From positions 1 through 39,808 of the forward strand of contig JADFDN010000013.1 of assembly GCA_018262815.1 (NCBI GenBank): a stretch of DNA of 39,808 nt. The letters run 5' to 3'. Under the pieces are notes generated by a model that was not told the origin of the DNA, made no database searches, and was given only the letters and a program-made list of their open reading frames with translations. Numbering within the stretch: position 1 is the stretch's first letter; each line of letters starts with the position of its first letter. Source of the stretch: Thiobacillus sp. (lineage in GTDB: Bacteria; Pseudomonadota; Gammaproteobacteria; Burkholderiales; Thiobacillaceae). Positions 9,035 through 25,661 of the stretch are shown here, piece by piece. Both the position numbers and the translations under genes were made by a program.

Positions 9035-9551
9035 GCCGGCTCAGTCCGGCTTTACTTACCTGTTCGTGCTGATGCTCGTTGCGCTCGTCGGCATGGGCCT
9101 CGCTGCTGCGGGAACGCTGTGGGGTACCGAGTCGCGGCGCGCGCGCGAAGCCGATCTGCTGTTCGTGGGCGAACAGTACCGCCAGGCGATCCGCAGTTAT
9201 TACGAACTCGATCCCGCCCAGCCGCGACTGCCCCAGAGCATCGACGACCTGCTGGAGGACAACCGCCGCGCAGAGGTTGTGCGTCATCTGCGGCGCGCCT
9301 GGCTTGATCCCATGACGGGTAGCGAACTCATGCTGATTATGGCGCCTGATGGCCAAGGCATCGTCGGTGTATACAGTCGGGCGACCGAGCGCCCTTTCAA
9401 GACAGCGGGTTTCACGCCGGCAAACGAGGCGTTTTCCGGTGCGGCCAGCTACGCCGACTGGCGCTTCGTTTTTATTCCCCCGGCTACCGCGTCCCCTCCG
9501 GGGCAGACGTCACCATCAAGCGCGGAGGCTAGCGTTCGCGCAGCACCTTGA
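9021..9551 (+). CDS. Pseudopilin lacking the conserved Glu5
   Basis: A 176-aa protein starting at ATG 9021 within the end of the preceding gene. A basic leader MRRGRPAQSG precedes FTYLF and the hydrophobic helix VLMLVALVGMGLAAAGTLWG. The cleavage Gly10/Phe11 is good, but mature position 5 is Phe, not Glu. The only standard pseudopilin without Glu5 is the tip protein GspK, yet the soluble part (SYYELDPAQPRLPQSIDDLLEDNR, WLDPMTGSELMLI) again looks GspG-like and is much smaller than GspK. I infer a tip or initiator pseudopilin. Its last 23 nt overlap the end of the ATPase subunit D gene on the other strand. Confidence 0.8.
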   Translation: MRRGRPAQSGFTYLFVLMLVALVGMGLAAAGTLWGTESRRAREADLLFVGEQYRQAIRSYYELDPAQPRLPQSIDDLLEDNRRAEVVRHLRRAWLDPMTGSELMLIMAPDGQGIVGVYSRATERPFKTAGFTPANEAFSGAASYADWRFVFIPPATASPPGQTSPSSAEASVRAAP

Positions 9552-10140
9552 TCTGGAACAGGGTGTTGCGCTCGTCTTCCTCCAGCGCGGCGCGGATGTG
9601 CTGCACCGTGGCCCGGTAGCGCGGGATGATGTTGTACTTCAGCGCGTTGACCCGCTTCTGCGTCTTGCGGCTGGCGGCGAGCAGGCGCCATAACGCATTT
9701 TCCGCCTCGCCCAGCCGTGCCAGCGTCACTGTCAGCTCGCGCAGGCGCAGCCGAGCCTCGTCGAAGCTGACGTCGGTCCACATCAGGCCCACCGGCTGCA
9801 AAGGCAGGGGCTCGGCGGTCACACTGGGATATTCCACGCCGACGCTGGAGCGCGCCACCACCCGAATCTCCACCGCCGGTTTCAGGCCCACCGACGCCTG
9901 GTGCAGCATCTGACCGCCCATGCGCATCTGCACGATGCCGAGCCAGCGGTAGGCCTCGGCGAGTTCGCGCTGGGTCTGTTCGCGCAATTCGCGGTATTGC
10001 GCCAGACGCTCATAGACCAGCCGCGTCAGCAGATCGCGTTTCTTCTCCAGCATTTGCCGGCCCTGCTCCAGAAAGCGGGCCTGGCGCCCGACCTGGAGCA
10101 GCGCGCTTTTTGTCGGCGGAACGGACAGGCGCTTCTTCAT
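9529..10140 (-). CDS. atpD: V/A-type ATPase subunit D (central rotor shaft)
   Basis: Central-stalk subunit D, 203 aa (usual 200-215). The N-terminus (PPTKSALLQVGRQARFLEQGRQMLEKKRDLL) has the family hallmark: a long antiparallel coiled coil whose first helix starts with the PTK/TKS motif and reaches LEKKRDLL. The second long helix (RRLAASRKTQKRVNALKYNIIPRY-like region, about 160-185) carries the conserved KTxxRVNALKYxxIPR motif. It couples ATP hydrolysis in the A3B3 head to rotation of the K ring. It is the last gene of the ATPase cluster, 106 nt downstream of subunit B, and the gap holds a large heptamer-built inverted repeat. The ribosome site is GAAAGG. Its stop overlaps the tail of the convergent pseudopilin gene. 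Confidence 0.95.
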   Translation of the reverse strand: MKKRLSVPPTKSALLQVGRQARFLEQGRQMLEKKRDLLTRLVYERLAQYRELREQTQRELAEAYRWLGIVQMRMGGQMLHQASVGLKPAVEIRVVARSSVGVEYPSVTAEPLPLQPVGLMWTDVSFDEARLRLRELTVTLARLGEAENALWRLLAASRKTQKRVNALKYNIIPRYRATVQHIRAALEEDERNTLFQIKVLRER

Positions 10141-10163
10141 TCGCCGGCCTTTCGGGCGGCAGT

Positions 10164-10241
10164 TTCAAGTCTCAAGTTGCAAGTTGCAAGGAGGACGCAA
10201 CCGCCTGTTTTTTCTTGCAACTTGCAACTTGAAACTTGCAT
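10164..10241. repeat. Inverted array of TTGCAAG heptamers between atpB and atpD
   Basis: The left array (10164-10191) reads as 7-nt units TTCAAGT, CTCAAGT, TGCAAGT, TGCAAGG. The right array (10214-10241) reads CTTGCAA, CTTGCAA, CTTGAAA, CTTGCAT. The arms 10166-10190 and 10214-10238 are complementary over 25 bp with one mismatch around a 23-nt loop, so the mRNA of this gap can form a long hairpin. There is no T-run after it, so it is not a standard terminator. It could instead lower or protect expression of the downstream subunit D. Confidence 0.9.
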
Positions 10242-10246
10242 CTTTC

Positions 10247-11632
10247 TCACGCCTCCGCGCCCTTGTGATACTTCGCCAGCTCGTCTTCCGAGACGCGGAT
10301 CAGCGATTCGGCCGGCAGCATCGACAGGAGATCCCAGGCGAGGTTGAGCGTCTCGTGGATGCTGCGGTCCTCGTCCTCGCCCTGGCCGATGAAGCGGCGC
10401 TCGAAGGCGTCGGCGAATTCGAGCGTGCGGCGGTCGGCGTCGGACAGTTCCTCGGCGCCGATGATGGCGGCCAGTCCCCTGACCTCCAGCGCCTTGGCGT
10501 AGCTGGCGAACAGCTGGCTGGCGACGTGGGGATGGTCCTCGCGGGTGAAGTTTTTGCCGACGCCGTCCTTCATCAGGCGCGACAACGACGGCAGCACCGT
10601 CACCGGCGGGTACACGCCCTGGTTGGCGAGCTCGCGCCCGAGCACGATCTGGCCCTCGGTGATGTAGCCGGTGAGGTCGGGAATCGGGTGGGTGATGTCG
10701 TCGGACGGCATCGACAGCACCGGAATCATCGTGATGGAGCCGCGCCGGTTCTTGATGCGCCCCGCGCGTTCGTAGATCTCGGCCAGATCCGAATAGAGGT
10801 AGCCGGGATAGCCCTTGCGCGCCGGCACGTCACCGCGCAGCACCGCGACTTCGCGCAGCGCTTCGGCGTAGGCGGTCATGTCGGTCATCACCACCAGCAC
10901 GTGGTAGTCGAGATCAAAAGCTAGGTATTCGGCGGCGGTGAGCGCGGCGCGCGGCGTCAGCAGGCGTTCGATCACCGGCTCGTCGGCGAGATTGAGGAAC
11001 ATCACCACCTTGTTGAGCACGCCGCTCTCCTCGAAGCTTTCCTGAAAGAAGCGCGCGTCGGCATGCGAAGCGCCGAAGGCGGCGAACACGACCACGAACT
11101 CGGCGGCCTCCTCGCCCAGCAGTTTGGCCTGACGCACGATCTGCGCCGCCACCCGGTTGTGCGGCAGGCCGCCGCCGGAAAAGATCGGCAGCTTCTGCCC
11201 GCGCGTCAGCGAATTCATGCCGTCGATCGCGGAGATGCCGGTCTGGATGAATTCGCGCGGATACGCGCGTGCGGCCGGATTGAGCGGCTCGCCGTTGACG
11301 TCGCGGCGGTCGGCGGAAACGATCGGCGGTCGGCCGTCGCGCGGCAGGCCCGAGCCATTGAAGATACGGCCCATGATGTCGCGCGAAACCGGCAGCTTGA
11401 ACGGCTCGTCGAGAAAACGCACCCAGGTGCGTTCGAGGTCAAGCTCGTCGGTGCCCTCGAACACTTCCACCAGCACCGCGTCGTCGGCGGCGCGGATCAC
11501 CAGTCCCGAACGGATGCGCCCGGCGTGGTCGCGCAGCTGCACCCGCGAGCCGGCCGCGACGCCGGGCACGCCGCCCATGACGACGAGGCCGCCCTGGGCG
11601 GAGGTGGCGGTGCGGAATTCGATGTTTTTCAC
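10247..11632 (-). CDS. atpB: V/A-type ATPase subunit B (non-catalytic)
   Basis: Non-catalytic subunit B of the A3B3 head, 461 aa (usual 460-470). It starts with GTG overlapping the subunit A stop as GTGA. The sequence shows the N-terminal beta-barrel (about 1-70), then the nucleotide-binding fold with the degenerate P-loop region FIQTGISAIDGMNSLTRGQKLPIFSGGGLPHN typical of B subunits. A clear GxxxxGKT Walker A is absent. Further conserved blocks are LNLADEPVIERLLTPRAALTAAEYLAFDLDYHVLVVMTDMTAYAEALREV and the C-terminal SLSRLMKDGVGKNFTREDH. It forms catalytic sites at the A/B interface. It is coupled in translation to subunit A. Confidence 0.96.
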   Translation of the reverse strand: MKNIEFRTATSAQGGLVVMGGVPGVAAGSRVQLRDHAGRIRSGLVIRAADDAVLVEVFEGTDELDLERTWVRFLDEPFKLPVSRDIMGRIFNGSGLPRDGRPPIVSADRRDVNGEPLNPAARAYPREFIQTGISAIDGMNSLTRGQKLPIFSGGGLPHNRVAAQIVRQAKLLGEEAAEFVVVFAAFGASHADARFFQESFEESGVLNKVVMFLNLADEPVIERLLTPRAALTAAEYLAFDLDYHVLVVMTDMTAYAEALREVAVLRGDVPARKGYPGYLYSDLAEIYERAGRIKNRRGSITMIPVLSMPSDDITHPIPDLTGYITEGQIVLGRELANQGVYPPVTVLPSLSRLMKDGVGKNFTREDHPHVASQLFASYAKALEVRGLAAIIGAEELSDADRRTLEFADAFERRFIGQGEDEDRSIHETLNLAWDLLSMLPAESLIRVSEDELAKYHKGAEA

Positions 11633-13422
11633 GGTGTGGCCTCCCGCAGGGTCGAGAGGGGCACGGTGTACTCCTGAATCAAGGGTTCGAAGCTATCCGG
11701 GATCGCGGCGATCTTGGCCTTGAGCGCAGCGAGATCGTCCGAGCCGTGCTGGCTTTTCCAGCGCCTTGCCTGCGCCAGCAGCGGCAGCTGGATCAGTCTT
11801 CTGGCAGGCGCGCCGAGCTTCACCAGCCTCATGCCATGACGATAGATGTCGAGCAAGGCAGCGAGCAGCGCGTACTGCTTCTCAGGTGAAGCAAAACTGT
11901 CCACGTCGTCGGTGGCCGACTGCTGCAGCAGGCCTTCCTTGATCAGCCCTGCCGCTTCCAGCGTCCAGCGCTGTTCGCTGGAAAGCGCCTCGACGCCGAC
12001 GAGGTTGACGATGCGCTGCAGTTCTTCCGAGGCCGCGAGCAGGTCGAGCGCTTCGGCGCGCGCGCTTTCCCAATTCGGATCAACGGTTTCCGCCCACCAT
12101 TTCGCAGCCGACTTCACATAGCCCGAAAAGCTTTCCAGCCAGTCGACCGCCGGGTAATGGCGCGCGTCGGCGAGTTCCTTCGACAGCGCCCAGAAGGTCT
12201 GGATGATCTCCTTGGTGTGGCTGGTGACCGGTTCGGAAAAGTCGCCTCCGGGCGGCGACACCGCGCCGATCAGCGTCACCGAACCGTGGTCGCCTGCGAA
12301 GGTTTCGACTCGCCCGGCGCGCTCGTAGAAGGCGGCGAGACGCGAGCCGAGGTAGGCCGGATAGCCCTCCTCCACCGGCATCTGGCCCAGCCGGCCGGCG
12401 ACTTCACGCAGCGCCTCGGCCCAGCGGCTGGTCGAGTCCGCCACCATCACCACGTCGTAGCCCTGATCGCGGAAATATTCGGCCAGCGTGATGCCGACGT
12501 AGATCGACGCCTCGCGTGCGACCACCGGCATGTTGGAGGTGTTGGCGACCAGCAGCGTGCGCTCCATCAGCGGGCGTCCGGTATGCGGGTCTTTCAGTTC
12601 GGGCATGAATTCGAGCACGTCGGTGAGCTCGTTGCCGCGCTCGCCGCAGCCGACGTAGATGACGATCTCGGCGTTGCACCAGCGCGCGATCTGCTGCTGC
12701 AGCATGGTCTTGCCGGCGCCGAAGGGGCCGGGGATGGCCGCCTTGCCGCCCTTCAGCAGCGGATAGAAGGTGTCGAGGATGCGCTGCCCGGTGATCAGCG
12801 GCGCCACCGCGTGGTCGCGCTGTTTGAATGGACGCGGCGTGCGCACCGGCCAGCGATGGAACAGGTGCAGCTTCTCGATGCGGCCGTCGGCGAGCTTGAC
12901 CCGACCGATCGCTTCGTCGAGCGTGTAGTCCCCCTCGGGCGCCAGCTCCAGCAGTTCGCCCTGGATCAGCGGCGGGGTCAGGATGCGGTGCAGGATGGAT
13001 TCGGTTTCCTGCACGCTGCCGAGGACGTCCCCGCCCGTCAGCATGCCGCCGGCCTGGCGTGTCGGGTCGGGCACGAAATGCCAGGCCTTGTCTCGCGGCA
13101 GCGAGGGCACCGCGACGCCGCGCGCGATGCGGTCGCCGCTCTGTTCCCGCACCGCCTGCAGCGGCCGCTGCACGCCGTCGAAGATCGCGCCCAGCAGGCC
13201 AGGGCCGAGTTCGACCGACAGCGGCCAGCCCAGGCCTTCCGCCTCTTCGCCGGGGCGCAGGCCGGCGGTGTCTTCGTAGAGCTGCGCCAGCGCGGTGTCG
13301 CCGTCGCGGCCGATCACCTCGCCGACCAGGCCCATGCGCCCGACCCGAACCTGCTCGCCGATCACCGTCTGCGGCAGTTCGAGTTTGACCAGGGGGCCGT
13401 TGATTTCCAGAATCGCACCCAT
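11629..13422 (-). CDS. atpA: V/A-type ATPase catalytic subunit A
   Basis: Catalytic subunit A, 597 aa (usual 580-600), from ATG 13422 with AAGGAAA upstream; the open frame continues to 13668, but that overlaps subunit E. It has the N-terminal barrel, the A-specific non-homologous insertion (about 110-190), Walker A GPFGAGKT at 232-239 and the catalytic Glu in GCGERGNELTDVLEFMPEL. It also has MVADSTSRWAEALREVAGRLGQMPVEEGYPAYL and SPPGGDFSEPVTSHT. The Walker A has Ala where most V-ATPases have Ser (GPFGSGKT), a small variation that also occurs among P-loops. It hydrolyses (or makes) ATP in the cytoplasmic head. It lies between subunits E and B. Confidence 0.97.
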   Translation of the reverse strand: MGAILEINGPLVKLELPQTVIGEQVRVGRMGLVGEVIGRDGDTALAQLYEDTAGLRPGEEAEGLGWPLSVELGPGLLGAIFDGVQRPLQAVREQSGDRIARGVAVPSLPRDKAWHFVPDPTRQAGGMLTGGDVLGSVQETESILHRILTPPLIQGELLELAPEGDYTLDEAIGRVKLADGRIEKLHLFHRWPVRTPRPFKQRDHAVAPLITGQRILDTFYPLLKGGKAAIPGPFGAGKTMLQQQIARWCNAEIVIYVGCGERGNELTDVLEFMPELKDPHTGRPLMERTLLVANTSNMPVVAREASIYVGITLAEYFRDQGYDVVMVADSTSRWAEALREVAGRLGQMPVEEGYPAYLGSRLAAFYERAGRVETFAGDHGSVTLIGAVSPPGGDFSEPVTSHTKEIIQTFWALSKELADARHYPAVDWLESFSGYVKSAAKWWAETVDPNWESARAEALDLLAASEELQRIVNLVGVEALSSEQRWTLEAAGLIKEGLLQQSATDDVDSFASPEKQYALLAALLDIYRHGMRLVKLGAPARRLIQLPLLAQARRWKSQHGSDDLAALKAKIAAIPDSFEPLIQEYTVPLSTLREATP

Positions 13423-13442
13423 TGCTTTTTCCTTGTTGTTAC

Positions 13443-14093
13443 TTATCCGTGGACCAGCGTGCCGAGGTCGGGCGCGCTGGCGAACAGGCGTTCCATCGAC
13501 ACCCGCGCCAGTTCGTCGGCGAGGCGCGCCTGTCGGGCCTCGAAGGTCTGGTCGAGCTGGGCACGTAGGTCGGCGAGGCGCACCCGCATGCCGCCTTCGC
13601 TCGGCCCGCTGTGGCTGGCGAGCGTGACGGTGCGTCCCGGCGCGGCACGCGCCGTCAGCTCGGGCCAATGCGGAGCCAGCCGCTTTTCGTCTTCGGGCCG
13701 CACTTCCGCCACCAGATCGCCCGGCGGCAGCGCCTGGGCTGCCGCCGCCAGCCAGGATTCGAGCACGTCCAGATAACGCGTTTCGTCCTGCACCAATTGG
13801 CGGAACGCCGTTTTCACCCCGGCCAGCGTGGCTTCGGTCAGCGCCCAGCGCAGGCGGTCGAGGTCTGCGGCCAGCCGCGTCTCGGCCGCCTGACTGTGGC
13901 GCCTGACCAGCCGCTCGGCCTCGACCTTGGCAAGCAGCACTTCGCGTTCCCCGGCCAGCTTCAGTTTTTCCGCCGACTCGGCGAGGATGCGGGCGCGTGC
14001 CGACTCGGCGTTCTGCAACGCTTCGCGCGCCAGCGTCTCGGCCTGCAGCAGCAGTGCCTGTTCGAGTTGCGAAACCTGTGCGTCCGATTCCAT
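13443..14093 (-). CDS. atpE: V/A-type ATPase subunit E (peripheral stalk)
   Basis: Peripheral-stalk subunit E, 216 aa. The N-terminal half (about 5-110) is a long charged helix rich in Ala, Glu and Arg (LARSALQNAESARARILAESAEKLKLAGE-like) that pairs with the G/H subunit as a right-handed coiled coil. The C-terminal half is the globular domain that binds the top of the head, ending VSMERLFASAPDLGTLVHG. GGAG precedes the ATG. The assignment rests on architecture and position between F and A, as in other bacterial V/A clusters; sequence identity in this family is low. It is 20 nt upstream of subunit A. Confidence 0.85.
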   Translation of the reverse strand: MESDAQVSQLEQALLLQAETLAREALQNAESARARILAESAEKLKLAGEREVLLAKVEAERLVRRHSQAAETRLAADLDRLRWALTEATLAGVKTAFRQLVQDETRYLDVLESWLAAAAQALPPGDLVAEVRPEDEKRLAPHWPELTARAAPGRTVTLASHSGPSEGGMRVRLADLRAQLDQTFEARQARLADELARVSMERLFASAPDLGTLVHG

Positions 14094-14120
14094 TTTTGCT
14101 CCGGATTCAAACCCTTAAGC

Positions 14121-14203: not shown

Positions 14204-14548
14204 CTATTTCAACGCATCCGGCCCCAGCACCGCCCGCACCACCTCGTCCACCGCCGGTGCGTAGTCGTGCGGTGCAGGCAGCGGGGGCAGTTCGGTGATG
14301 ACGATGCGACCGCCTTCGTTGCGCAGGCGGTTGAGCCAGTAGCCGCGGCCCTGGGCGAGCGGGGTTTCCAGCAGAACCAGCGCCGCATCGCCGCATTTCG
14401 CCAGTTGCTCGAGCACGCTTTCGACGGTCGTCAGGTCGGCGTCGGCGTGCACCTCGGCGCCGATCAGGCCGAAGCCGCTGGCGAGACCTGCGCTGCCCAG
14501 CACCACCAGCCGTGCGTTGCCGTGCGGGCATTCGGTGTCGGCCGGCAT
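14204..14548 (-). CDS. atpF: V/A-type ATPase subunit F (rotor)
   Basis: Small Rossmann-like subunit F of the central stalk, 114 aa (usual 100-115). The pattern LVVLGSAGLASGFGLIGAEVHADAD near the N-terminus corresponds to the family GDxxTxxGFxLxG motif, followed by DAALVLLETPLAQ and the C-terminal IVITELPPLPAPHD. In other V/A-ATPases F binds D and regulates hydrolysis. The gene lies 5 nt after the K subunit stop. Its 3' end abuts the heptamer array. Identity is supported by length, the GFxLxG-type motif and cluster position. Confidence 0.82.
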   Translation of the reverse strand: MPADTECPHGNARLVVLGSAGLASGFGLIGAEVHADADLTTVESVLEQLAKCGDAALVLLETPLAQGRGYWLNRLRNEGGRIVITELPPLPAPHDYAPAVDEVVRAVLGPDALK

Positions 14549-14553
14549 CGGGT

Positions 14554-14991
14554 TCAGATCTTGCCGAGCAGCAGGATGGACATGACGAGGCCGTAGATCG
14601 CGATCCCTTCGGCCAGCCCCATGTAGATCAGCGTACGGCCGAACATTTCCGGCTTTTCGGCGATGACCGCGAGCGAGGCCGAGCCGATCGGGCCCAGCGC
14701 GATGGCCGCGCCGATTGCGGCAAGGCCGGTCGGCAGCCCGACACCGAGCAGCGCCAGGCCCTGACCCACGGTGATGCCTGCGGCCGCGGCGCCGGCCGGC
14801 TCAGCCGCCAGCACGTCCTGCATGCCGAGCAGGGTGACGCCGAGCAGCCCCAGGCCGAACAGCGCCAGATTGGCGAACAAGCCGCCCTTGAGCCAGCCTG
14901 CCGTCACACGGCGCGGCTTCAACTCCAGCCAGATGCCCGCGGCCAGCGTGGCCGCCACCGGTAAAACCATCAATGCGATCAACCCGGTCAT
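14554..14991 (-). CDS. atpK: V/A-type ATPase membrane ring subunit K
   Basis: Proteolipid subunit K of the rotor ring, 145 aa from ATG 14991, preceded by a strong AGGAGGGG site. Four hydrophobic segments are visible: about 3-22, 37-57, 72-98 and 119-143. The second hairpin is typical (GLAAIGAAIALGPIGSA, then MGLAEGIAIYGLVMSILLLG) and carries the ion-binding Glu at residue 128, 17 residues from the C-terminus, the same distance as the single Glu in Enterococcus NtpK. The first hairpin has no membrane carboxylate. The residue after Glu128 is Gly, not Ser/Thr, and the hairpin lacks the Gln expected of sodium-binding rings, so I infer proton coupling. Upstream in this frame is subunit I in another reading frame. 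Confidence 0.92.
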   Translation of the reverse strand: MTGLIALMVLPVAATLAAGIWLELKPRRVTAGWLKGGLFANLALFGLGLLGVTLLGMQDVLAAEPAGAAAAGITVGQGLALLGVGLPTGLAAIGAAIALGPIGSASLAVIAEKPEMFGRTLIYMGLAEGIAIYGLVMSILLLGKI

Positions 14992-15014: not shown

Positions 15015-16910
15015 TCAAACCCTGACCTGTTGCGACTCCAGTCGCAGCGGCACGAACTCCCTGCCATCTGCGCTGAAGAAGCGCGAGAACCCTTCGTAAT
15101 ACATCAGACGCAGCGCCTGGATCGCGACGATGCCGCCTTCCAGAACGATGATGACGATATTGCCGAACACGATGGTGAGCCAGTGGCCCGTCGCATCGAG
15201 TCCGTTCGCGAGCGTGAACACTGCCAGCGCGAGCGCCACGTGGTTGAGGCTGAAGGCTGCCACACGCATGAACGAAAGCGTGTTGGAAAACAGGTTGATG
15301 GCGGTTTCCAGCGTTTCGATCAGCGTCACCAGGATGCGCTCGCCCAGCCCGGCCCTGGCTTCGAACCACTTGAATGCGGCCACGACGACGATGCCCAGGC
15401 CGGCGAGCATCGCGGCCGGTTGCGCGAAATCCGCCGCCCCGGCCACGCTTGCCAGCACGCCGACCGCACCCAGATAGAAGACCAGCCCGGCCAGCCCGCC
15501 GGAATCGAACAGGGCTTCGGCGGCACGACCGGCCACGCCCCGGTTCCAGGCGTTGGCCAGCAAGGTGAAGCTGATGAAGCCGACCCCGAAGCCGACGGCA
15601 AGGGTCAGCACGCGGATCGGATCGTGCAGTGGCGACAGCCACAGCGGTTCGATGAGGGTCTCGTAGCCGAAGAGGCTGCCGTAGAACAGGCCGAACAGCA
15701 TCGACACCGCACCGGCTGCGATGCCCACCCAGGCCATGCGCCCGAGCCGACGGGCCAGTGCGGCGGACAGCAGCAGGATCACCGCGCCGTGGCCGATGTC
15801 GCCGAACATGGCGCCGAACAGCAGCAGATAGGTGACGGCGAACGGCAGCGCCGGGTCGAACTCGCCGTAACGCGGTACGCCGTAGCTTTTGACCAGCGGA
15901 ACGAAGGGAGCCAGCCAGCCCGGATAGCGCACCAGCGAGGGGACCTCGGCGACTTCGCGGGGGGTCGGCTCGCGCACGTCGAGCCAGGTGCGTCCGTGGA
16001 AACGTTCGTCCAGCGTGGCGCGCAGCGCATCCAGCCGACGTTTGGGAACCCAGCCCGACAGGGCTGCCAGCCCGCCCTTGCCGCGCACGCCGGCCAGCGC
16101 GGCCTCGGCCAGCGGGCGCGCCAGGGCGAGACGCAGTCGCGCTTCGTGCAGGCGCGGGCCGAAGCGATCGCGCAGGCCGTCCATGACCCGGCATGCCGCA
16201 CCGGATTGCGACGCCAGCCGGGCGCGCTCGGCCTCCAGCCAGGTGCGTGCCGCGTGCGGATGGGTGCGCAGTTCATCCGGCACCGGCAACTCGCGCCAGC
16301 CGGCCTGAGCCAGCACGCCACGCACTTCGTCGTGGCGTGCGCGCGGGCCGGCAATGACCGCGAACACCTGCTCGCCGACCTGATCGAAGCGCGACACTAG
16401 GTGCCCGGTCATGGCGAGCGCCTCCGTGACGCGCCTGAAACCCGCCGCCGGCAGGCTGCCGATGTCGACCGCCAGCAGGCTGTCGGCGCGCAGCAGGCGG
16501 GCAAGGTCGACGTTGAGGCGTTCCAGCCTGGCGAGCGTGTCTGCCAGCGCGTCGAGATGGCTGCGTGCCTCCGCGATCCGCGTTTCGTTCTCGTGACATT
16601 CCAGGCAACTGATCCACACCTCTTTCAGCCACGCATTCAGTTCCTGCAGGTCGGCAAGCGCCGGTGCCTCGGCATCGGCCGGAAGGTTCAGGGGACCGCT
16701 GTCACCGCACTGCTCCAGCAGCTTGGACAGGCGGGACCCGGCTTCCAGCCAGGCTTCCCGATACGCGGCGGCCGGCGATTCCGCAAGCGCGTCCACCGTG
16801 CACGGTGCCGGGTTGAACACGCCGAAGCGGGCCAGCGCGAGCGCGGCATCCTGCACTTCGGACGCCAGCATCAGCAGTTGAACCCTGACGAGCGGCTCGG
16901 CGCGCAGCAT
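15015..16910 (-). CDS. atpI: V/A-type ATPase subunit I (membrane stator)
   Basis: Stator subunit I (equivalent of eukaryotic subunit a), 631 aa. The N-terminal 320 residues are cytoplasmic and helical and clamp the peripheral stalks (coiled-coil at about 80-130). The C-terminal half has about seven to eight membrane helices, opening with FAVTYLLLFGAMFGDIGHGAVILLLSAALARRLG. This FGxMFGDxGHG block is the family hallmark. Further helices end with FVRLAAFSLNHVALALAVFTLAN-like and IVFGNIVIIVLEGGIVAIQALRLMYYEGFSRFF, which holds the conserved LEG and RLxYYEFFSKFF-type motif. The proton half-channels lie here. ATG and the subunit C stop share a base (TAATG). The length is close to the usual 640-660. 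Confidence 0.95.
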   Translation of the reverse strand: MLRAEPLVRVQLLMLASEVQDAALALARFGVFNPAPCTVDALAESPAAAYREAWLEAGSRLSKLLEQCGDSGPLNLPADAEAPALADLQELNAWLKEVWISCLECHENETRIAEARSHLDALADTLARLERLNVDLARLLRADSLLAVDIGSLPAAGFRRVTEALAMTGHLVSRFDQVGEQVFAVIAGPRARHDEVRGVLAQAGWRELPVPDELRTHPHAARTWLEAERARLASQSGAACRVMDGLRDRFGPRLHEARLRLALARPLAEAALAGVRGKGGLAALSGWVPKRRLDALRATLDERFHGRTWLDVREPTPREVAEVPSLVRYPGWLAPFVPLVKSYGVPRYGEFDPALPFAVTYLLLFGAMFGDIGHGAVILLLSAALARRLGRMAWVGIAAGAVSMLFGLFYGSLFGYETLIEPLWLSPLHDPIRVLTLAVGFGVGFISFTLLANAWNRGVAGRAAEALFDSGGLAGLVFYLGAVGVLASVAGAADFAQPAAMLAGLGIVVVAAFKWFEARAGLGERILVTLIETLETAINLFSNTLSFMRVAAFSLNHVALALAVFTLANGLDATGHWLTIVFGNIVIIVLEGGIVAIQALRLMYYEGFSRFFSADGREFVPLRLESQQVRV

Positions 16911-18014: not shown

Positions 18015-18332
18015 TCATGCGGTCGGATCGAGCAGCACGCTCAGGGCCGCATCCACCGCCTCGGATTCGTGGCGCGAGGCCAGTTCACGCAGGGTACGCT
18101 GCCGCTCTCCGTATTTGCGAGAAAGCTCGGCCACGGCCTGGTCGGCCCGGCCCTGTGCCTCGTCGAGGAAAGGCACTCTGAGCCCGGCTCGGCTGGCCTC
18201 GAAACGCGACTCGGCTTCGCGCGCCATGGCCAGGGCCTCGTCGATCATGCGCTGGCGTTCGTGGGAGGCGGCATCGATCAGCGCCTGCGCACGCGCTTCG
18301 GCGGCCAGCAGGCGTTGCAGCGTATCGTCCAT
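18015..18332 (-). CDS. V/A-type ATPase subunit G/H (peripheral stalk helix)
   Basis: A 105-aa, almost entirely helical and charged protein. The start, LQRLLAAEARAQALIDAASHERQRMIDEA, matches the first helix of V-ATPase subunit G/H, which pairs with subunit E in the peripheral stalk. It is the first gene of the ATPase cluster, as in several bacterial V/A operons, and lies only 4 nt downstream of hupE. The assignment is by length, coiled-coil character and position, since this family has little conserved sequence. Confidence 0.75.
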   Translation of the reverse strand: MDDTLQRLLAAEARAQALIDAASHERQRMIDEALAMAREAESRFEASRAGLRVPFLDEAQGRADQAVAELSRKYGERQRTLRELASRHESEAVDAALSVLLDPTA

Positions 18333-18336
18333 CCGC

Positions 18337-18912: not shown

Positions 18913-18959
18913 TGCATGCTCTCCAGATACGAATGGTTACGGCAGACGGGCGCTGCGCA

Positions 18960-20750
18960 TTACTTGATCTTCACCTGAACCAGTTCCTCGCCATCCGGGT
19001 CGGTCACATGCACGGCACAGGCAATGCACGGATCGAAGGAATGGATGGTTCGCAGGATCTCGATCGGCTGCTTGGGGTCGTGCATCACGTGATTGTCCTG
19101 CAGCGCCGCCTCGTAGGCGCCCGGCTGGCCTTGCGTGTCGCGCGGGCCGGCGTTCCAGGTGCTCGGAACCACCGCCTGGTAGTTGCTGATCTTGGCGTCG
19201 TCGATGACGATCCAGTGGGAGAGCCCGCCGCGCGGCGCTTCCATCAGGCCGACGCCCTGCATGTGGCTGGGCCAGGTCGACGGATCCCAGTACTGGTCGT
19301 TGAAGGTGCGGACGTCGCCGGCCTTGATGTTGGCCATCAGCTGGTCGAACCAGCCCTGCATGGCATCGGCGAGGATCTTCGATTCCAGCGTGCGCGCGGC
19401 GGTTCGGCCGAGCGTCGAGAACAGCGCGTCGACCGGCACATCGAGCGTCTTCAGCGTCAGCCCCACCAGCTCCTTCGCCTGGGCGTTGCCGCTGGCGTAC
19501 AGCATCAGCACGCGGGCGAGCGGGCCGACTTCCATCGAGTGGCCCTTCCAGCGCGGCGATTTCAGCCAGGAGTATTTCTGCTCGACATCGAGGTGTTCGT
19601 AAGGCGGCTTCGGCCCCGTGTAGTTGAGTTCCGTCTCGCCCCTGAAGGGGTGCAGGCCGTGCGCATCGCCTTCGCTGTACTTGTACCAGGAGTGGCTGAC
19701 GTATTCCTGGATCTCGTTGTCCGCATCCAGATCGATGGGATGGATGGTCGACAGGTCGCGGTTGAGGATGACGCCGCGCGGGATGAGATAGGAGTCGGTG
19801 TCCCAGAAACCTTTCGACGGCAGATCGCCGAAGGTCATGAAGTTGCCCAGGCCTTCGCCGCGTCCGCCCCAGTCCTTGTAGAAACCGGCGATGGCCAGCG
19901 TGTCGGGCACGTAGACCTGGTCGACGAATTCGCGCATCTGGCGGATGACGTTCTGCACCATCTGCAGGCCCACCATGTTGAGCGCGGTGGCATCCTGGCC
20001 GCCGCGGTAATGCGGCCCCTTGCCCGGACCGGCACCGGTCTGCACCGAGATGGCCGAGGGCACGCCGCCCACCACGAAGTTGGGGTGCGGGTTCTTGCCG
20101 CCGAAGATGGTGTGCAGCTTGACCACGTCGCGCTGCCAGGCGAGCGCGTCGAGGTAATGCGCCACCGCCATCAGGTTGGCTTCGGGCGGCAGCTTGTAGG
20201 CGGGATGGCCCCAGTAGGCGTTGGCGAAAATGCCGAGCTGGCCCTGCTCGACGAAGGTCTTCACCTTTTTCTGCACGTCGGCGAAGTAGCCCGGCGAGGA
20301 CTTCGAATAGCCCGACAGGCTTTGCGCCAGCGCCGAGGTGGCCTTGGGATCGGCCTTCAGTGCCGACACCACGTCGACCCAGTCGAGCGCGTGCAGGTGA
20401 TAGAAGTGCATCACGTGGTCGTGCACGAACTGCGCGGCGATCATCAGGTTGCGGATCAGCTCGGCGTTCTGCGGAATACCGTAACCGGGGATGGCGCGAT
20501 GCAGCGCGTCCTCGACCGACCGCACCGAGGCGATGCCGTGCACCAGCGTGCAGACGCCGCAGATGCGCTGGGCGAAAGCCCAGGCATCGCGCGGGTCGCG
20601 ACCCCTGAGGATGATCTCGATCCCGCGCACCATGGTGCCGGCGGAATACGCGCTGGTGATCTTGCCGTCGGCGTCGGTTTCGGCCTCGATGCGCAGGTGG
20701 CCCTCGATGCGGGTGATGGGGTCGACGACGACGCGTTGTGCTGTGGTCAT
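18960..20750 (-). CDS. hynL: [NiFe] hydrogenase large subunit HynL
   Basis: Catalytic large subunit of a membrane-associated [NiFe] hydrogenase, 596 aa. The N-terminus VVVDPITRIEGHLRIE, the L1 motif RICGVC at 62-67 and the L2 motif DPCIACAVH ending at 581 supply the four nickel-binding cysteines (C64, C67, C575, C578). A 15-residue tail after His581 should be removed by the protease HupD once nickel is in place. The gene order hynS-isp1-isp2-hynL matches the Isp-type (group 1e) enzymes of purple sulfur bacteria such as Thiocapsa and Allochromatium. The ribosome site is GGAGA; isp2 ends 4 nt upstream. The protein has no export signal and is carried by the Tat signal on HynS. Confidence 0.97.
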   Translation of the reverse strand: MTTAQRVVVDPITRIEGHLRIEAETDADGKITSAYSAGTMVRGIEIILRGRDPRDAWAFAQRICGVCTLVHGIASVRSVEDALHRAIPGYGIPQNAELIRNLMIAAQFVHDHVMHFYHLHALDWVDVVSALKADPKATSALAQSLSGYSKSSPGYFADVQKKVKTFVEQGQLGIFANAYWGHPAYKLPPEANLMAVAHYLDALAWQRDVVKLHTIFGGKNPHPNFVVGGVPSAISVQTGAGPGKGPHYRGGQDATALNMVGLQMVQNVIRQMREFVDQVYVPDTLAIAGFYKDWGGRGEGLGNFMTFGDLPSKGFWDTDSYLIPRGVILNRDLSTIHPIDLDADNEIQEYVSHSWYKYSEGDAHGLHPFRGETELNYTGPKPPYEHLDVEQKYSWLKSPRWKGHSMEVGPLARVLMLYASGNAQAKELVGLTLKTLDVPVDALFSTLGRTAARTLESKILADAMQGWFDQLMANIKAGDVRTFNDQYWDPSTWPSHMQGVGLMEAPRGGLSHWIVIDDAKISNYQAVVPSTWNAGPRDTQGQPGAYEAALQDNHVMHDPKQPIEILRTIHSFDPCIACAVHVTDPDGEELVQVKIK

Positions 20751-20754
20751 GTAT

Positions 20755-22017
20755 TCAGTTCTCCAGATGTTCTGCCAGCAGCTCGGTCATGCCGAGCAGT
20801 TTGGTATTCATCTCGTAATGGTCGAAGCCCTCCTCCATCACGATGCGGCAGTTGGCGCAGAAGGTCACCATGGTGCTGACGCCCGCTTCCTCGATCTGGC
20901 GCTTCTTGATCTGGAAGACCTTGGCGCGCAGCGCTTCCGCCTCCTCGGTGTGGATCGCCGACGCACCGCCCCCGCCGCCGCAGCACCAGTTCCATTTCTG
21001 CTTGTCGACGATCGGGATATAGTTTTCCGCGACCTGCTGGATCAGCGGTTCGGGCGCCTGCAGCACGCCGCCACGGCGCACGATCTGGCAGGGATCGTGC
21101 AGGATCAGCGGATCCTTGAGCTTGTCCTTCATTTTCAGCACGCCCTTCTGGCGCAACTCGTCGAGCAGCTCGAGCACATGCACGACCTCGAAGCCGAAGG
21201 GCCGGCCGATCAGGTTGGGGCCTTCCCAGCGGATCGCCATGTAGGCGTGGCCGCACTCGGGCGACAGCACCTTCTTCACCTTGAGCTTTTCGGCGGCGTC
21301 GACGATGCGCGAGACGATCACTTTCGCCAGGTCCGAGTTGCCGATCTGGATGCCGGCGTTGGTCGCCTCGAAAGCATCGGACGCCAGCGTGAAACTGATG
21401 CCTGCCTTGTGGAAGATTTTCGCCAGTGCCTCGATGTACTCGGGATAGTTGACGATTTCCATGGACGACAGCAGCACCAGGTACTCGGCACCGGGCTGGT
21501 CGACCGGGATTTTCAATCCGGTGGCCTCCTCGGCCTTTCTGAGGACATTGGCGACTGCAGGCCACTTCAGCCCCATCGGTCCGCCGAGTTCGACGGTACG
21601 CTTGGTGGCGGACCGGATGCCGTCGGGCACGTGACCGGACACCGCCATGCCTTCCCTCAATTTGCGCACCATGTAGACGATGTCGTTGCCCACAGGGCAG
21701 ATCAGCGAACAGCGTCCGCACATCGTGCAGCTGTCGTAGACCAGTTCCTGCCATTGATCGAGCTCGGCGTCGGTTACCGGTTTCGACAATCCGACCATTT
21801 TCTTCAGGCGTCCGAGCAGCGTGTATTCCTGTTCGTAGACGCGGCGCAGCGGCTCCAGCTTGTGGATCGGCGTGTACTTGGGGTCGCCTGTCTCGGTGTA
21901 GAACAGGCAGGCCTCGGCGCACAGGCCGCAATGTACGCAGCTTTCGAAGTAGCTGGCGATGGGAGCGTCGATGACTTCCTTCAGGGCATGGATGCCTTTT
22001 TCCAGTGAGACGCTCAT
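20755..22017 (-). CDS. isp2: Isp2: HdrD-like iron-sulfur protein of the hydrogenase
   Basis: A 420-aa cytoplasmic iron-sulfur protein from ATG 22017 (site GGGAG). Two [4Fe-4S] motifs lie near the N-terminus (CVHCGLCAEAC and CTMCGRCSLICP). Two cysteine-rich CCG-type domains follow, the second with HDPCQIV, WNWCCGGGGG and FCANCRIVMEEG. This is the layout of heterodisulfide reductase subunit HdrD/DsrK. In Isp-type hydrogenases Isp2 sits with the cytochrome Isp1 and passes electrons between HynSL and the quinone pool or a cytoplasmic acceptor. The open frame continues upstream to 22128 without a start that improves on 22017. It is followed by hynL after 4 nt. Confidence 0.93.
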   Translation of the reverse strand: MSVSLEKGIHALKEVIDAPIASYFESCVHCGLCAEACLFYTETGDPKYTPIHKLEPLRRVYEQEYTLLGRLKKMVGLSKPVTDAELDQWQELVYDSCTMCGRCSLICPVGNDIVYMVRKLREGMAVSGHVPDGIRSATKRTVELGGPMGLKWPAVANVLRKAEEATGLKIPVDQPGAEYLVLLSSMEIVNYPEYIEALAKIFHKAGISFTLASDAFEATNAGIQIGNSDLAKVIVSRIVDAAEKLKVKKVLSPECGHAYMAIRWEGPNLIGRPFGFEVVHVLELLDELRQKGVLKMKDKLKDPLILHDPCQIVRRGGVLQAPEPLIQQVAENYIPIVDKQKWNWCCGGGGGASAIHTEEAEALRAKVFQIKKRQIEEAGVSTMVTFCANCRIVMEEGFDHYEMNTKLLGMTELLAEHLEN

Positions 22018-22057
22018 CGTGATTTCTCCCTGACGGTGCGGAACGCCTGATGCATGC

Positions 22058-22717
22058 TCATACCGGCACTCCTCTCTGCGCATTGGCCCTGCCGTTGTAC
22101 CAGCGCGAACCGAACAGCGTGAAGGCATGGAACAGTTTGGTGAAGGGCAGCACCACCAGCAGGATCTCCACCGACAGGATGTGCAGCGCCAGCATCGTGG
22201 TGTAAGGCAGCAGCAGATGCTGCACCGCCATCCAGCCGGTCAGCACCGGCAGGAAGGTCACCGCCCAGGTGAACCAGTCCTCGAACGTGCTGAGGAAGCG
22301 CTTGGCCGGCTTGTTGATGCGGTCCACCAGCACCACCACCATCGCCGCCATCGTCACCACCGCCACCAGGTCGACGAACTGGGACGGCAGGCCGGGCCAG
22401 GACAGGCCGGTCAGGTTGGTGACCAGCAGGATGTGCGGGGCGAACCCGAACACGACGATCGCCAGGCCGATGTGGAAGATGTAGCCGCCGATGTAGCTCA
22501 CCGGCGAGCGCTTCAGCATGCCGGGCGGGGGAAGCGATCGCCGGAACACGGTGTGCAGGCCGGATGCGCCAGCCGCATGGCGCGGCGTGGACAGATCTTT
22601 CTTGCGGCCCAGCGAATAGATCTCGAACAGGCGCCACACCACTCCCAGCACGAAAATCCCCACGGCGATGTCGAGCCCCGGTCCGCGCACCCATGTCAGA
22701 AATTGCAGTTCGTTCAT
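22058..22717 (-). CDS. isp1: Isp1: NarI/HdrE-like cytochrome b subunit
   Basis: A 219-aa integral membrane protein of the NarI/DsrM/HdrE family with about five helices: about 12-30, 78-98, 114-134, 152-172 and 178-200. Histidines that could hold b haem are visible in YIGGYIFHIGLAIVVFGFAPHILLV and in LALHILSVEILLVVLPFTKLFHAF. It anchors the hydrogenase and exchanges electrons with quinone. The ATG immediately follows a TGA belonging to a short open frame in the repeat element upstream, and its Shine-Dalgarno GGAGG is the end of that element. It lies 40 nt upstream of isp2. Confidence 0.92.
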   Translation of the reverse strand: MNELQFLTWVRGPGLDIAVGIFVLGVVWRLFEIYSLGRKKDLSTPRHAAGASGLHTVFRRSLPPPGMLKRSPVSYIGGYIFHIGLAIVVFGFAPHILLVTNLTGLSWPGLPSQFVDLVAVVTMAAMVVVLVDRINKPAKRFLSTFEDWFTWAVTFLPVLTGWMAVQHLLLPYTTMLALHILSVEILLVVLPFTKLFHAFTLFGSRWYNGRANAQRGVPV

Positions 22718-22720
22718 TCA

Positions 22721-22859: not shown

Positions 22860-22860
22860 A

Positions 22861-23940
22861 TCATTTCTCCAGATCTTCCACGGTCAGGGTCTCGTGCGTT
22901 TGCCTGGCCACGTTTTTCTTGGCCCGGTTGGCGAAGCTCACTGCCACCCCTGCCCCTGCGCCTGCGATGGCCGCGGCGGCGCCGATCCTGAGCGGGTCGG
23001 CCGGCACCGACAGTGCCTTGTAGAAGCCGCCGGCGTCCCAGAAATCCGGTTCGGAACAGCCGAGGCAGCCATGCCCGGATTCCACCGGCCACGATGTACC
23101 GCCGTTCCATTTCACCGTGGCGCAGGCGTTGTAGGTCACCGGCCCCTTGCAGCCGAGTTCGAACAGGCACCAGCCCATGCGTGCGCCTTCGTCGTCGAAG
23201 GTCTTGGCGAATTTGCCCTGGTCGTAGAACGGGCGACGGTAGCAGCGGTCGTGGATGGTTTCGCCGAAGAAGGCCTTCGGCCGGCCCTTCTCGTCGAGTT
23301 CCGGCAGGCTGCCGAAGGTGAGGTAATGCGCCAGCACACCGGTCATCACCACCGGGATGGGCGGGCAGCCGGGGATGTTGACGATGGGCTTGTTCGTGAC
23401 GATGTCGGACACCGAGACCGCGCCGGTCGGGTTCGGATTGGCCTTCGGGATGCCGCCGTAGGACGCGCAGGAACCCATGGCGACGATGGCTGCCGCGCCT
23501 TCGGCGGCCTCCTTCAGGATGTCCACATTGGAACGCCCGCCGATGCAGGAATAGGCACCGTCGCGTCCCAGCGGGATCGAACCATCGACGACCAGCAGAT
23601 ACTTGCCGGCATTCTCCTTCATCGCGGCGTGCCGGGCTTCCTCAGCCTGGTGTCCGGCCGCCGCCATCAGCGTCTCCTGGTAGTCGAGCGAGATCATGTC
23701 GAAGATCATGCCTTCCAGGGTCGGCGAGTGCGAGCGCGTGATCGACTCGGTGCAGCCGGTGCATTCCTGGAACGGCAGCCAGATCACCGAGGGCCGCCGC
23801 GCGGCCGCCATCGCCTCGGCCATCGCGCGCCCCGCCGCGGGCGGCAGCGCCATCATCGAGGCCAGCGTGGCGCAATACTTCAGGAAGGTACGGCGGGTGA
23901 TGCCCTGCCGTGCGAGCGTGTCGATCAACGGACCCTGCAT
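22861..23940 (-). CDS. hynS: [NiFe] hydrogenase small subunit HynS (Tat-exported)
   Basis: Electron-transfer small subunit, 359 aa. A twin-arginine signal ITRRTFLKYCATLASMMALPPAAGRA (R16 R17) directs export of the folded HynSL pair. The proximal [4Fe-4S] cluster starts at C60-T-G-C63-TES; GSCASYGGIP, NIPGCPPIP, IHDRCYRRP, WCLFELGCKGP and GHGCLGCSEPDFWD supply the other ligands. Gly62 and the Gly in SYGGIP stand where oxygen-tolerant enzymes have two extra cysteines, so a standard proximal cluster is expected. The C-terminus has a hydrophobic anchor (IGAAAAIAGAGAGVAVSFA) and a basic tail. The ribosome site is GGGAGG. Upstream, a 13-bp palindrome lies at 23955-23967. Confidence 0.96.
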   Translation of the reverse strand: MQGPLIDTLARQGITRRTFLKYCATLASMMALPPAAGRAMAEAMAAARRPSVIWLPFQECTGCTESITRSHSPTLEGMIFDMISLDYQETLMAAAGHQAEEARHAAMKENAGKYLLVVDGSIPLGRDGAYSCIGGRSNVDILKEAAEGAAAIVAMGSCASYGGIPKANPNPTGAVSVSDIVTNKPIVNIPGCPPIPVVMTGVLAHYLTFGSLPELDEKGRPKAFFGETIHDRCYRRPFYDQGKFAKTFDDEGARMGWCLFELGCKGPVTYNACATVKWNGGTSWPVESGHGCLGCSEPDFWDAGGFYKALSVPADPLRIGAAAAIAGAGAGVAVSFANRAKKNVARQTHETLTVEDLEK

Positions 23941-23954
23941 GATGCGTGCCTCCC

Positions 23955-23967
23955 GATGTTTAACATC
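23955..23967. promoter_or_regulatory. Palindrome before hynS
   Basis: GATGTT-T-AACATC is a perfect 6-bp inverted repeat around one base, just upstream of the hynS ribosome site in the 76-nt hupH-hynS gap. It could be a small operator or an mRNA hairpin near the ribosome site. Nothing ties it to a known regulator, and a 13-bp palindrome can occur by chance. Confidence 0.3.
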
Positions 23968-24016
23968 ACAGCCTTACATTTCGTCGTTTTGATAGCGTGC
24001 CGGCGCTCAGTTCACT

Positions 24017-24433
24017 TTAGAGGTCGGAAATCAGCAATTCAAGATATTCCTGTCCGTTTTTAACATCCTCGGGATGTGCTTTCACCAGTTCGGGCACGAA
24101 CGCCACTTCGATGAACTGCGAGGTGACCGCGCCCTGCTCGTTGCGATGCGTGACCCACCAGATTCCCGGACAGGCCGTCTCGTTCAGCGTGGATTCGCCG
24201 TTGGCCTGCAGGCTGACGCTGATTTCGCCGGCGCCGAGCGTGTCCTGCAGCCACGCCAGGTCGGCGGGCGTCAGCGGCAAGGCGGACAGATCGATGGCCG
24301 ACGTTTCGCCGGACGCCAGCAGGCGCTTCGCCAGTTCGGACAGTTCGCGCAGCAGGGGCGGCGCATTGCCGCTCAGGCCGGGTTCGGCCGAGGGCGGATC
24401 GATGACGTGTATGGGAATGGCGTCAAGCGACAT
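24017..24433 (-). CDS. HupH/HyaF-like hydrogenase assembly protein, short form
   Basis: A 138-aa protein matching the C-terminal half of the HupH/HyaF family. Typical segments are IDLSALPLTPADLAWLQDTLGAGEISVSLQANGE, NETACPGIWWVTHRNEQGAV and FIEVAFVPELVKAHPEDV. Family members in other bacteria are about 280 aa and act in maturation or electron transfer of the small subunit, probably as a scaffold. This one begins directly at the C-terminal domain and is a natural short form rather than a truncated gene, since an ATG start and an 11-nt overlap with hupD are intact. It lies 76 nt upstream of hynS. Confidence 0.85.
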   Translation of the reverse strand: MSLDAIPIHVIDPPSAEPGLSGNAPPLLRELSELAKRLLASGETSAIDLSALPLTPADLAWLQDTLGAGEISVSLQANGESTLNETACPGIWWVTHRNEQGAVTSQFIEVAFVPELVKAHPEDVKNGQEYLELLISDL

Positions 24434-24896
24434 GCTGCCATTCCCGGATCAGTTCGCGGATGGCCGCGCAGGCCGGCGGAATGGCGGCCGCGACGGCAGG
24501 GGTCGGCTGTTCGCCCCAGTCGACGACATCGGGCCGGATCGCCAGCATGGCGCGCTTGTCGGGCCAATGACCGGCCAGCAGCGCGATGGCACGCAGATCG
24601 GTCAGCCCCACTTCATGCACCGAGGCCTTGCGATTGCTCATCAGGAATGCGTCCATTTCCTCCCCTTCCAGCAACGCCCATTCGCCTGCTGTGTTTTTGA
24701 TATTGGCGGCATCGACGACGATCAGCGCATCGGCATCCTCGATCGGCCCCGCCAGGGTGAAAGACAGCGTGCCGCCATCGAGCAGGGTCACATCGGGCCA
24801 GTTCGCCAGCTCGGGTTCGAGTGCCTGCAGCACATGAATGCCGATGCCTTCGTCGGTGAGCAGGGTATTGCCGATGCCGAGCACGAGCGTTTTCAT
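24423..24896 (-). CDS. hupD: Hydrogenase maturation endopeptidase HupD/HynD
   Basis: A 157-aa protease of the HyaD/HupD family that removes the C-terminal tail of HynL after nickel insertion. The start LVLGIGNTLLTDEGIGIHVLQAL holds the metal-sensing Glu (DEGIG). IVVDAANI provides the Asp ligand, and HEVGLTDL the His ligand. It is the first gene of the minus-strand hydrogenase unit and is divergently arranged with hypC across a 149-nt AT-rich region. HynL is the only substrate seen in the window. Confidence 0.95.
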   Translation of the reverse strand: MKTLVLGIGNTLLTDEGIGIHVLQALEPELANWPDVTLLDGGTLSFTLAGPIEDADALIVVDAANIKNTAGEWALLEGEEMDAFLMSNRKASVHEVGLTDLRAIALLAGHWPDKRAMLAIRPDVVDWGEQPTPAVAAAIPPACAAIRELIREWQHVA

Positions 24897-25659: not shown

Positions 25660-25661
25660 AA

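Follow-up and report, generated by a model that had tools for sequence, protein, structure and literature searches.

V/A-type ATPase genes follow those of a predicted Isp-type [NiFe] hydrogenase in one gene run, conserved in Thiobacillus and its relatives

Isp-type (group 1e) [NiFe] hydrogenases, with structural genes in the order hynS-isp1-isp2-hynL, are found in Allochromatium and Thiocapsa, and the operons that we know of carry hydrogenase genes only. Thermococcus has formate/H2 systems with an A-type ATPase. Some bacteria keep an ATPase of the V/A type beside a normal F-type ATP synthase, and the reason for this is, to our knowledge, an open question. Here we describe a locus of Thiobacillus sp. 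(contig JADFDN010000013.1, positions 1 to 39,808) in which the genes of a predicted Isp-type hydrogenase and of a V/A-type ATPase (V-ATPase) form a single run. The window, that is, the whole stretch of 39,808 nt that was analysed, belongs to a 2.5-Mb assembly of 168 contigs that is 82% complete, and its closest named relatives are mostly labelled Thiobacillus.

In Thiobacillus denitrificans, the hyn operon (Tbd_1380, hynD; Tbd_1375, hynL), which specifies the same hydrogenase as the window, has the protease gene hynD as its first transcribed gene, according to the available text of PMC3753534. The co-expression network of the Riftia symbiont (Candidatus Endoriftia), in the available part of PMC11636981, places Hyd 1e and 3b together with V-type ATPases by the reductive tricarboxylic acid (rTCA) cycle genes, and F1-ATPase by the Calvin cycle; expression of Hyd1e was higher under sulfide and oxygen limitation. 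The symbiont thus has the same two kinds of enzyme as the window in one expression group apart from the F1-ATPase; it differs in that this is a co-expression result from a symbiont, and the available part of PMC11636981 does not mention gene adjacency. By analogy from another bacterium, this network is the nearest experimental support that we found for one functional unit. In excerpts of two further papers, a Sideroxydans contig is said to carry a V-type ATPase, with no tie to a hydrogenase mentioned (PMC5178258), and Achromatium to have both an Isp-type hydrogenase and V-type ATPases, which are treated separately (PMC4530308). A joint gene arrangement is not described in the available portions of PMC5178258, PMC12596165, PMC4530308, PMC11636981 and PMC3753534, and a conserved, repeatedly evolved one was not found in the open-licence literature. 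Relative to that literature, both enzymes and their co-expression in one symbiont were already known, and the gene arrangement appears to be the new part.

The window shares with the Isp-type operons the four structural genes, their order and the nearby maturation genes, and adds nine V/A-ATPase genes after the hydrogenase. With Thermococcus it has in common H2/formate redox chemistry on one ion circuit with an A/V-type rotary ATPase; the Thermococcus systems differ in being archaeal and in having a hydrogenase of the energy-converting class and Mrp-type ion modules. Compared with the V/A-ATPases of Thermus and Enterococcus hirae, to whose type the solved relatives of the window's subunits A and K belong, the subunits are the same; the window differs in the order G-C-I-K-F-E-A-B-D, in the location inside a hydrogenase run and in the F-type ATPase of its host.

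A sequence-only reading of the window had listed sixteen consecutive minus-strand genes, from hupD (24896) to atpD (9529), and profile searches found all of them in that order. The assignments of atpE and atpG, both under the Pfam cut-off, are the least secure in the run, and for these two position and conservation were also used. The genes and the two junctions between hydrogenase and ATPase genes are:

24423..24896, minus strand, hupD/hynD, hydrogenase maturation protease (PF01750, 61.6 bits; TIGR00072, 127.5 bits)
24017..24433, minus strand, hupH-like, HupH C-terminal domain (PF04809, 115.9 bits)
22861..23940, minus strand, hynS, [NiFe] hydrogenase small subunit (TIGR00391, 443.7 bits)
22058..22717, minus strand, isp1, membrane cytochrome b-like protein, TmcC/HmcE-like (NF045723, 141.7 bits, under the model cut-off of 240)
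20755..22128, minus strand, isp2, Fe-S protein with CCG domain, DsrK/HmcF/TmcB-like (PF02754, Fer4; DsrK model, 218.8 bits, under the cut-off of 400)
18960..20750, minus strand, hynL, [NiFe] hydrogenase large subunit (PF00374, 767.8 bits; two CxxC motifs)
18913..18959, minus strand, hynL-hupE junction, 47 nt, without a terminator-like site
18337..18912, minus strand, hupE, HupE/UreJ membrane protein (PF04955, 184.3 bits)
18333..18336, minus strand, hupE-atpG junction, 4 nt, without a terminator-like site
18015..18332, minus strand, atpG, V/A-ATPase stalk subunit G/H (PF03179, 23.9 bits, under the cut-off of 28.6; position conserved)
16910..17977, minus strand, V/A-ATPase subunit C, AC39 (PF01992, 163.1 bits)
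15015..16910, minus strand, V/A-ATPase subunit I (a) (PF01496, 99.2 bits)
14554..14991, minus strand, V/A-ATPase subunit K, rotor ring (PF00137, 63.3 bits on 14554-14961; aligned with solved rings)
14204..14548, minus strand, V/A-ATPase subunit F (PF01990, 26.7 bits)
13443..14093, minus strand, atpE, V/A-ATPase subunit E (PF01991, 23.7 bits against a cut-off of 24.2; position conserved)
11629..13422, minus strand, V/A-ATPase catalytic subunit A (PRK04192, 804.7 bits; P-loop GPFGAGKT)
10247..11632, minus strand, V/A-ATPase subunit B (PRK04196, 709.3 bits)
9529..10140, minus strand, atpD, V/A-ATPase central shaft subunit D (PF01813, 144.3 bits)

The start of atpA is most likely the ATG at 13422 rather than the upstream TTG at 13668, and the true start of isp2 is probably near 22017. 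The two junctions have exactly the lengths that had been claimed for them. The absence of a terminator also held: the minus-strand candidate nearest to the hynL-hupE-atpG junctions lies within hupE (18888-18868), and the 7 terminator-like candidates in 8500-26500 are fewer than in shuffled sequences (mean 10.7). The widest gaps in the run are elsewhere (hynS-isp1, 143 nt; atpF-atpE, 110 nt; atpB-atpD, 106 nt).

Upstream of hupD the run faces maturation genes on the opposite strand:

24897..25045, no strand assigned, divergent intergenic region hupD/hypC, 149 nt
25046..25276, plus strand, 76-amino-acid protein that, from its translation, we take to be hypC-like, heading a divergent cluster hypC-A-B-D-F-E
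25149..30833, plus strand, hypA, hypB, hypD, hypF, hypE (PF01155, PF01924, HypF domains, AIRS; hypB by PF02492 and TIGR00073; open reading frame starts placed mechanically)

The operon promoter likely sits in 24897..25045. No FNR or sigma-54 consensus was found at up to 2 mismatches in the hypC-hupD region of the window; FNR-like sites with 0-1 mismatch occur in 7 of 46 such regions, among them those of the V-ATPase-linked loci L168 and L096. Spacing, orientation, conservation across genera and the repeated assembly of the pairing give good support to the proposal that the ATPase genes belong to the hydrogenase operon, and from these features we predict with good confidence that hydrogenase and V/A-ATPase genes are co-transcribed.

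Linkage in related genomes, whose absence the sequence-only reading had taken as speaking against it, proved to be conserved. Among 117 genomes of the family, scored for the V-ATPase by a match to the AC39 subunit and for the hydrogenase by a HynL of at least 70% identity, AC39 was found in 66 and HynL in 83; 64 genomes had both, 2 the V-ATPase only, 19 the hydrogenase only and 32 neither (Fisher p 3e-13, uncorrected for kinship). Both parts lie on one contig and the same strand in 56 of the 64, with the ATPase downstream in all 56 and hynL less than 1.3 kb from the subunit C gene in 54; in the remaining 8 they are on separate contigs, several at contig ends. One of the two genomes with V-ATPase only, G502, shows it on a 3.5-kb contig in which hupE adjoins atpG and the contig ends there. 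A second scan, of a partly overlapping collection, yielded 77 named loci, 48 of them with an A subunit of at least 75% identity. These 48 comprise 33 linked loci (all on one strand), 1 unlinked locus (L033) and 14 cut by contig ends, so that 33 of 34 informative loci are linked. None of the 29 more distant named loci is linked; six of them have at least 2 kb upstream of atpG to judge.

The spacing is also conserved. The hupE-atpG distance does not exceed 60 nt in 25 of 26 loci (the window itself, L009, and one duplicate pair included), and the median hynL-hupE distance across loci is 48.5 nt. hupE is optional, being present in 15 of the 33 linked named loci; where it is missing, hynL and atpG are separated by 34-415 nt (median 108 nt; 30 rows containing about seven duplicates), and by kilobases in two loci. 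Loci of the window's genus that lack the V-ATPase have hupE after hynL in eleven cases (L108-L118) and not in L107, and the single-contig Thiobacillus-type genome G444 (2,909,809 bases) likewise has hynL-hupE and no V-ATPase, an absence that may explain why the arrangement has so far escaped attention. Since V-ATPase-less loci keep hynL-hupE, the ATPase looks like a module gained or lost at the end of the hydrogenase operon. Comparison with four relatives indicated purifying selection on all 12 genes tested (the nine ATPase genes plus hynL, hynS and hupE), with ratios of nonsynonymous to synonymous substitution rates of 0.04-0.38.

Additional genes occur in and behind the run in some loci. A conserved 86-amino-acid protein with a CxxxCxxC motif (CEYGCPICTRA) is encoded on the same strand before atpG, or before hupE in L171, in eight distinct loci (L019:5056-5313, L085, L079, L023, L037, L039, L047 and L171; L093 is a duplicate of L019, and the contig of L023 begins past hynL); it has no match in the window. 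A conserved protein of about 148 amino acids is encoded between isp2 and hynL in L093, L094, L039, L049, L047, L031, L124, L132, L133, L108 and L016, and not in the window, whose isp2-hynL gap is 4 nt. The genes beyond atpD vary among species: L027 (13900-18157) and L047 have an HbpS-like protein, a MauG-type cytochrome c peroxidase and a GGDEF-EAL protein there, with partial sets in L049 and L085. In L138 (G399), which has no V-ATPase, an HbpS-like gene lies directly behind hynL.

In the order as a whole, AC39 was found in 12 of 399 genomes, with HynL adjacent in 9; the exceptions are G201, G132 (V-ATPase at a contig start, a 59% HynL-like match elsewhere) and G365 (single contig, no HynL match). 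The family of G170 has the V-ATPase in 2 of 4 genomes, linked in G170, and the family of G365 has it in 9 of 150, with a HynL of 78-82% in 6 of the 9. G531 is the only linked case in the latter family, with hynL and subunit C 4.3 kb apart; a gene for a 963-amino-acid GGDEF-EAL protein lies between its hupE and atpG (L157:11572-14463).

A class-wide sample had AC39 in 22 of 369 genomes, 21 of them over the curated cut-off. The premise that bacterial V/A-ATPases usually stand alone agrees with this sample: of 20 V-ATPase genomes checked (all except the window's own and G854, whose match is under the cut-off), one, G950, has the V-ATPase beside a [NiFe] hydrogenase. G950, from another family, carries the whole order hypDBA, hupD-hupH-hynS-isp1-isp2-hynL-hupE-atpGCIKFEABD on a single 4.0-Mb contig. 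In G774 (L169:6244-8103), a gene for a fused NuoE/NuoF-like flavoprotein is divergent from a V-ATPase operon with no adjacent hydrogenase. A [NiFe] large subunit (E ≤1e-50) was found in 77 of the 369 genomes, in 19 of the 22 with a V-ATPase versus 58 of the 347 others (p 1.5e-11) and, by genus, in 17 of 20 versus 50 of 252 (p 5e-9), both uncorrected for kinship or lifestyle. The lists were matched by eye, and the AC39 search undercounts V-ATPases.

Indeed, when hydrogenase loci were fetched from 20 class genomes negative in the AC39 search, two (L228 from G880 and L229 from G964) showed a divergent V-ATPase subfamily beside an Isp-type hydrogenase. In L228 (340-10052) the V-ATPase begins 4 nt past hynL and runs through a weak G-like gene, I, K, F, A, B and D, with genes in the places of C and E that matched no assigned subunit; in L229 (1-12215) the V-ATPase genes are divergent from hupD, between the structural genes and hypA-hypB. 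Their A and B subunits are 46-50% identical to those of the window and 58% to each other, and in the tree L228 lies nearest to L187, a V-ATPase that is not linked. Because L228 and L229 carry this other subfamily, one origin for all hydrogenase-linked V-ATPases was rejected by the approximately unbiased (AU) test (p 9e-6), in which the constrained group also held L121, L135 and L162, placed among the linked rows with no adjacent hydrogenase of their own; the trees were quick searches with some long branches, including L228 and L229. In the hydrogenase tree, loci with and without a linked V-ATPase interleave, with 10 changes. With a second subfamily in the same place and a single origin rejected, the partnership appears to have been assembled at least twice and to have been separated or rejoined several times.

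In two species of one genus of the class (G725, L163:2426-9082; G848, L176), a formate dehydrogenase with an Isp1-like and an Isp2-like protein is encoded about 0.3 kb upstream of atpG. The set consists of a molybdopterin enzyme, an FDH3-type beta subunit, a cytochrome b561-like protein and the Isp1-like and Isp2-like proteins, the last 58% identical to the window's Isp2. Here a formate dehydrogenase replaces HynSL before the same kind of electron-transfer pair and ATPase.

In the window's hydrogenase, HynS has a Tat-type motif (RRTFLK) at residue 16 and a C-terminal hydrophobic stretch (319-337), Isp1 has four hydrophobic stretches and Isp2 no membrane stretch, and HynL has the CxxC motifs RICGVC and DPCIAC; isp1 and isp2 lie between hynS and hynL, as in Isp-type [NiFe] hydrogenases, and the solved chain closest to HynL is 3myr (947.7 bits). 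Judged on motifs, gene order and this nearest chain, the enzyme is predicted to be periplasmic, Isp-type and group 1e-like. HynL is the single [NiFe] large subunit found in the window's genome, whose assembly is incomplete.

All core ATPase subunits (A, B, D, F, E, G, C, I and K) are present. The P-loop is in A, with no P-loop match in B, and both score best as V-type rather than as F1 alpha/beta, which sets the enzyme apart from ATP synthases of the F or N type; an F-type AtpA and a partial AtpD are encoded elsewhere in the incomplete assembly. The alignment of subunit K with the second half of the Na+ ring of E. hirae has no gaps and places E128 at the ring carboxylate. Of the Na+ ligands of that ring, which we take to be Q110, T64, Q65, Y68 and the carboxylate, the first three are replaced in K by L99, G129 and I130, and Y68 and the carboxylate are kept. 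A Na+-pumping enzyme was considered and set aside, given the loss of Q110, T64 and Q65. Since these are replaced while the carboxylate is kept, the coupling ion is likely to be protons, not Na+; the Thermus ring keeps one of the glutamine ligands, so the loss is no strict proof of proton use.

We favour, by a small measure, the reading that the cluster is one bioenergetic module in which the ATPase balances an H2/electron circuit, mainly as a pump when respiration is limited. Electrons would pass from HynSL in the periplasm through Isp1, the membrane cytochrome b, to Isp2, the cytoplasmic Fe-S protein. With H2 handled outside and Isp2 inside, this flow would be coupled to the membrane potential: oxidation of H2, with electrons moving inward, would build it, and evolution of H2, with electrons moving outward, would spend it. 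The ATPase genes would most likely be read from the promoter region before hupD together with the hydrogenase, and, lying in the same run, the ATPase would be made whenever the circuit is made. Its most likely job is to balance the circuit when respiration based on the F-type enzyme is limited (little oxygen, nitrate or sulfur donor); it would then act mainly as an ATP-driven proton pump, sustaining the proton motive force, with a possible reversal at abundant H2. The presence of an F-type enzyme inclines us towards pumping when acceptors are limiting. Functional coupling of hydrogenase and ATPase, the energetic side of which we infer, seems probable; that the ATPase is mainly a pump falls a little short of an even call.

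Alternatively, the V/A-ATPase could make ATP in place of the F-type enzyme where the proton motive force is small, as in H2 or formate oxidation at low H2, being adapted to such conditions by a ring with a different proton-to-ATP ratio. H2 oxidation outside with electrons delivered inside would build such a force, the Thermus relative of subunits A and K makes ATP, and a formate dehydrogenase can take the hydrogenase's place. The available part of PMC11636981 agrees as well, with co-expression with Hyd1e and a rise under limited sulfide and oxygen. We nevertheless regard a synthase as doubtful, as an F-type enzyme is present in the genome, hydrogenase-only relatives manage without the V-ATPase and the size of the ring is not readable from sequence. 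Two explanations that do without joint function appear to us unlikely, and to a like degree. The two enzymes might be mere neighbours, the V-ATPase having been inserted behind hynL or hupE, where it would have a promoter of its own and serve some other purpose, for example in pH balance or stress. The parts are indeed separable, the flanks past atpD vary, hynL and atpG are 34-415 nt apart where hupE is missing and kilobases apart in two loci, and a single origin within the main subfamily was not rejected. Such an insertion, however, fits poorly with junctions of 4 nt both in the window (hupE-atpG) and in L228 (hynL-ATPase), with the near absence of the V-ATPase without a hydrogenase in the family, with the conserved same-strand 86-amino-acid gene before atpG or hupE in eight distinct loci, and with the recurrence of the arrangement with another V-ATPase subfamily and with a formate dehydrogenase in the hydrogenase's place. 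Alternatively, the linkage might reflect joint transfer of useful energy genes, as in a gene island, more than joint function. Patchy presence in the family, flanks that differ between species and the interleaving of V-linked and V-less loci on the hydrogenase tree (10 changes) would be expected of such an island; joint transfer, however, explains neither the fixed gene order nor a second V-ATPase subfamily at the same place.

Several observations weigh against the module that we favour. The parts are separable: 19 of the 83 genomes with HynL show no V-ATPase (some are incomplete or end at hynL), and G201, 99% complete, has a V-ATPase and no HynL, on a contig that stops 124 bases past subunit C. 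In genus g164 the two are adjacent in G431, 4.9 kb apart in G433, 7.7 kb apart in G429 and on separate contigs in G432 and in G427, which appears truly unlinked; L033, labelled Rhodocyclaceae, has other genes instead of a hydrogenase in the 5.2 kb upstream of its V-ATPase, and the single-contig genomes G542 and G549, of the family of G365, hold both parts far apart. For the main V-ATPase subfamily taken alone, the AU test did not reject a single origin of linkage (p 0.25 and 0.26), and the formate dehydrogenase case counts as one event because it is confined to one genus. Isp-type hydrogenases are not specially enriched in V-ATPase genomes of the class: they occur in 12 of 16, against 17 of 20 other genomes, which were chosen for high scores. 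Not counted in the 16 are G950, which is linked and Isp-type, and G929. Of those counted, G879 and G673 were undecided and G981 and G848 are not Isp-type; the second V-ATPase subfamily turned up in 2 of the 20 others. Lifestyle could account for the class-wide co-occurrence, and linkage and co-occurrence are uncorrected for shared ancestry. Finally, sequence does not tell in which direction the ATPase or the hydrogenase works in the cell.

Elsewhere in the window, plus-strand genes at 207-9034, similar to those of type II secretion and type IV pili (T2SE ATPase, secretin, pilin-like), converge on the V-ATPase end. The genes at 32848-38644, near the hyp genes, may serve nitrate sensing and transport: they encode two MFS transporters, a response regulator with LuxR-type output and a histidine kinase that carries PilJ and HAMP domains. 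Rfam and tRNA scans across the window gave no matches.

The apparent assembly of the partnership more than once suggests an extra V-type pump tied to life on hydrogen. Because evolution joined an Isp-type oxidoreductase and a V/A-ATPase at least twice, we propose, tentatively, that in many proteobacteria the V/A-ATPase is a dedicated partner of Isp-type oxidoreductases for low-potential donors such as H2 or formate, the two forming a self-contained, reversible circuit with membrane potential and ATP. Such a circuit (HynSL-Isp or Fdh-Isp plus the V/A-ATPase) would run apart from the main respiratory chain and the F-type enzyme. The arrangement offers a specific, testable answer to why a second ATPase is kept, and Thiobacillus-type bacteria are suited to testing it, since the ATPase module is present in some natural relatives and absent from others. 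Energy conservation by Isp-type hydrogenases in subsurface and in sulfur-cycling bacteria would thereby become open to genetic study as well.

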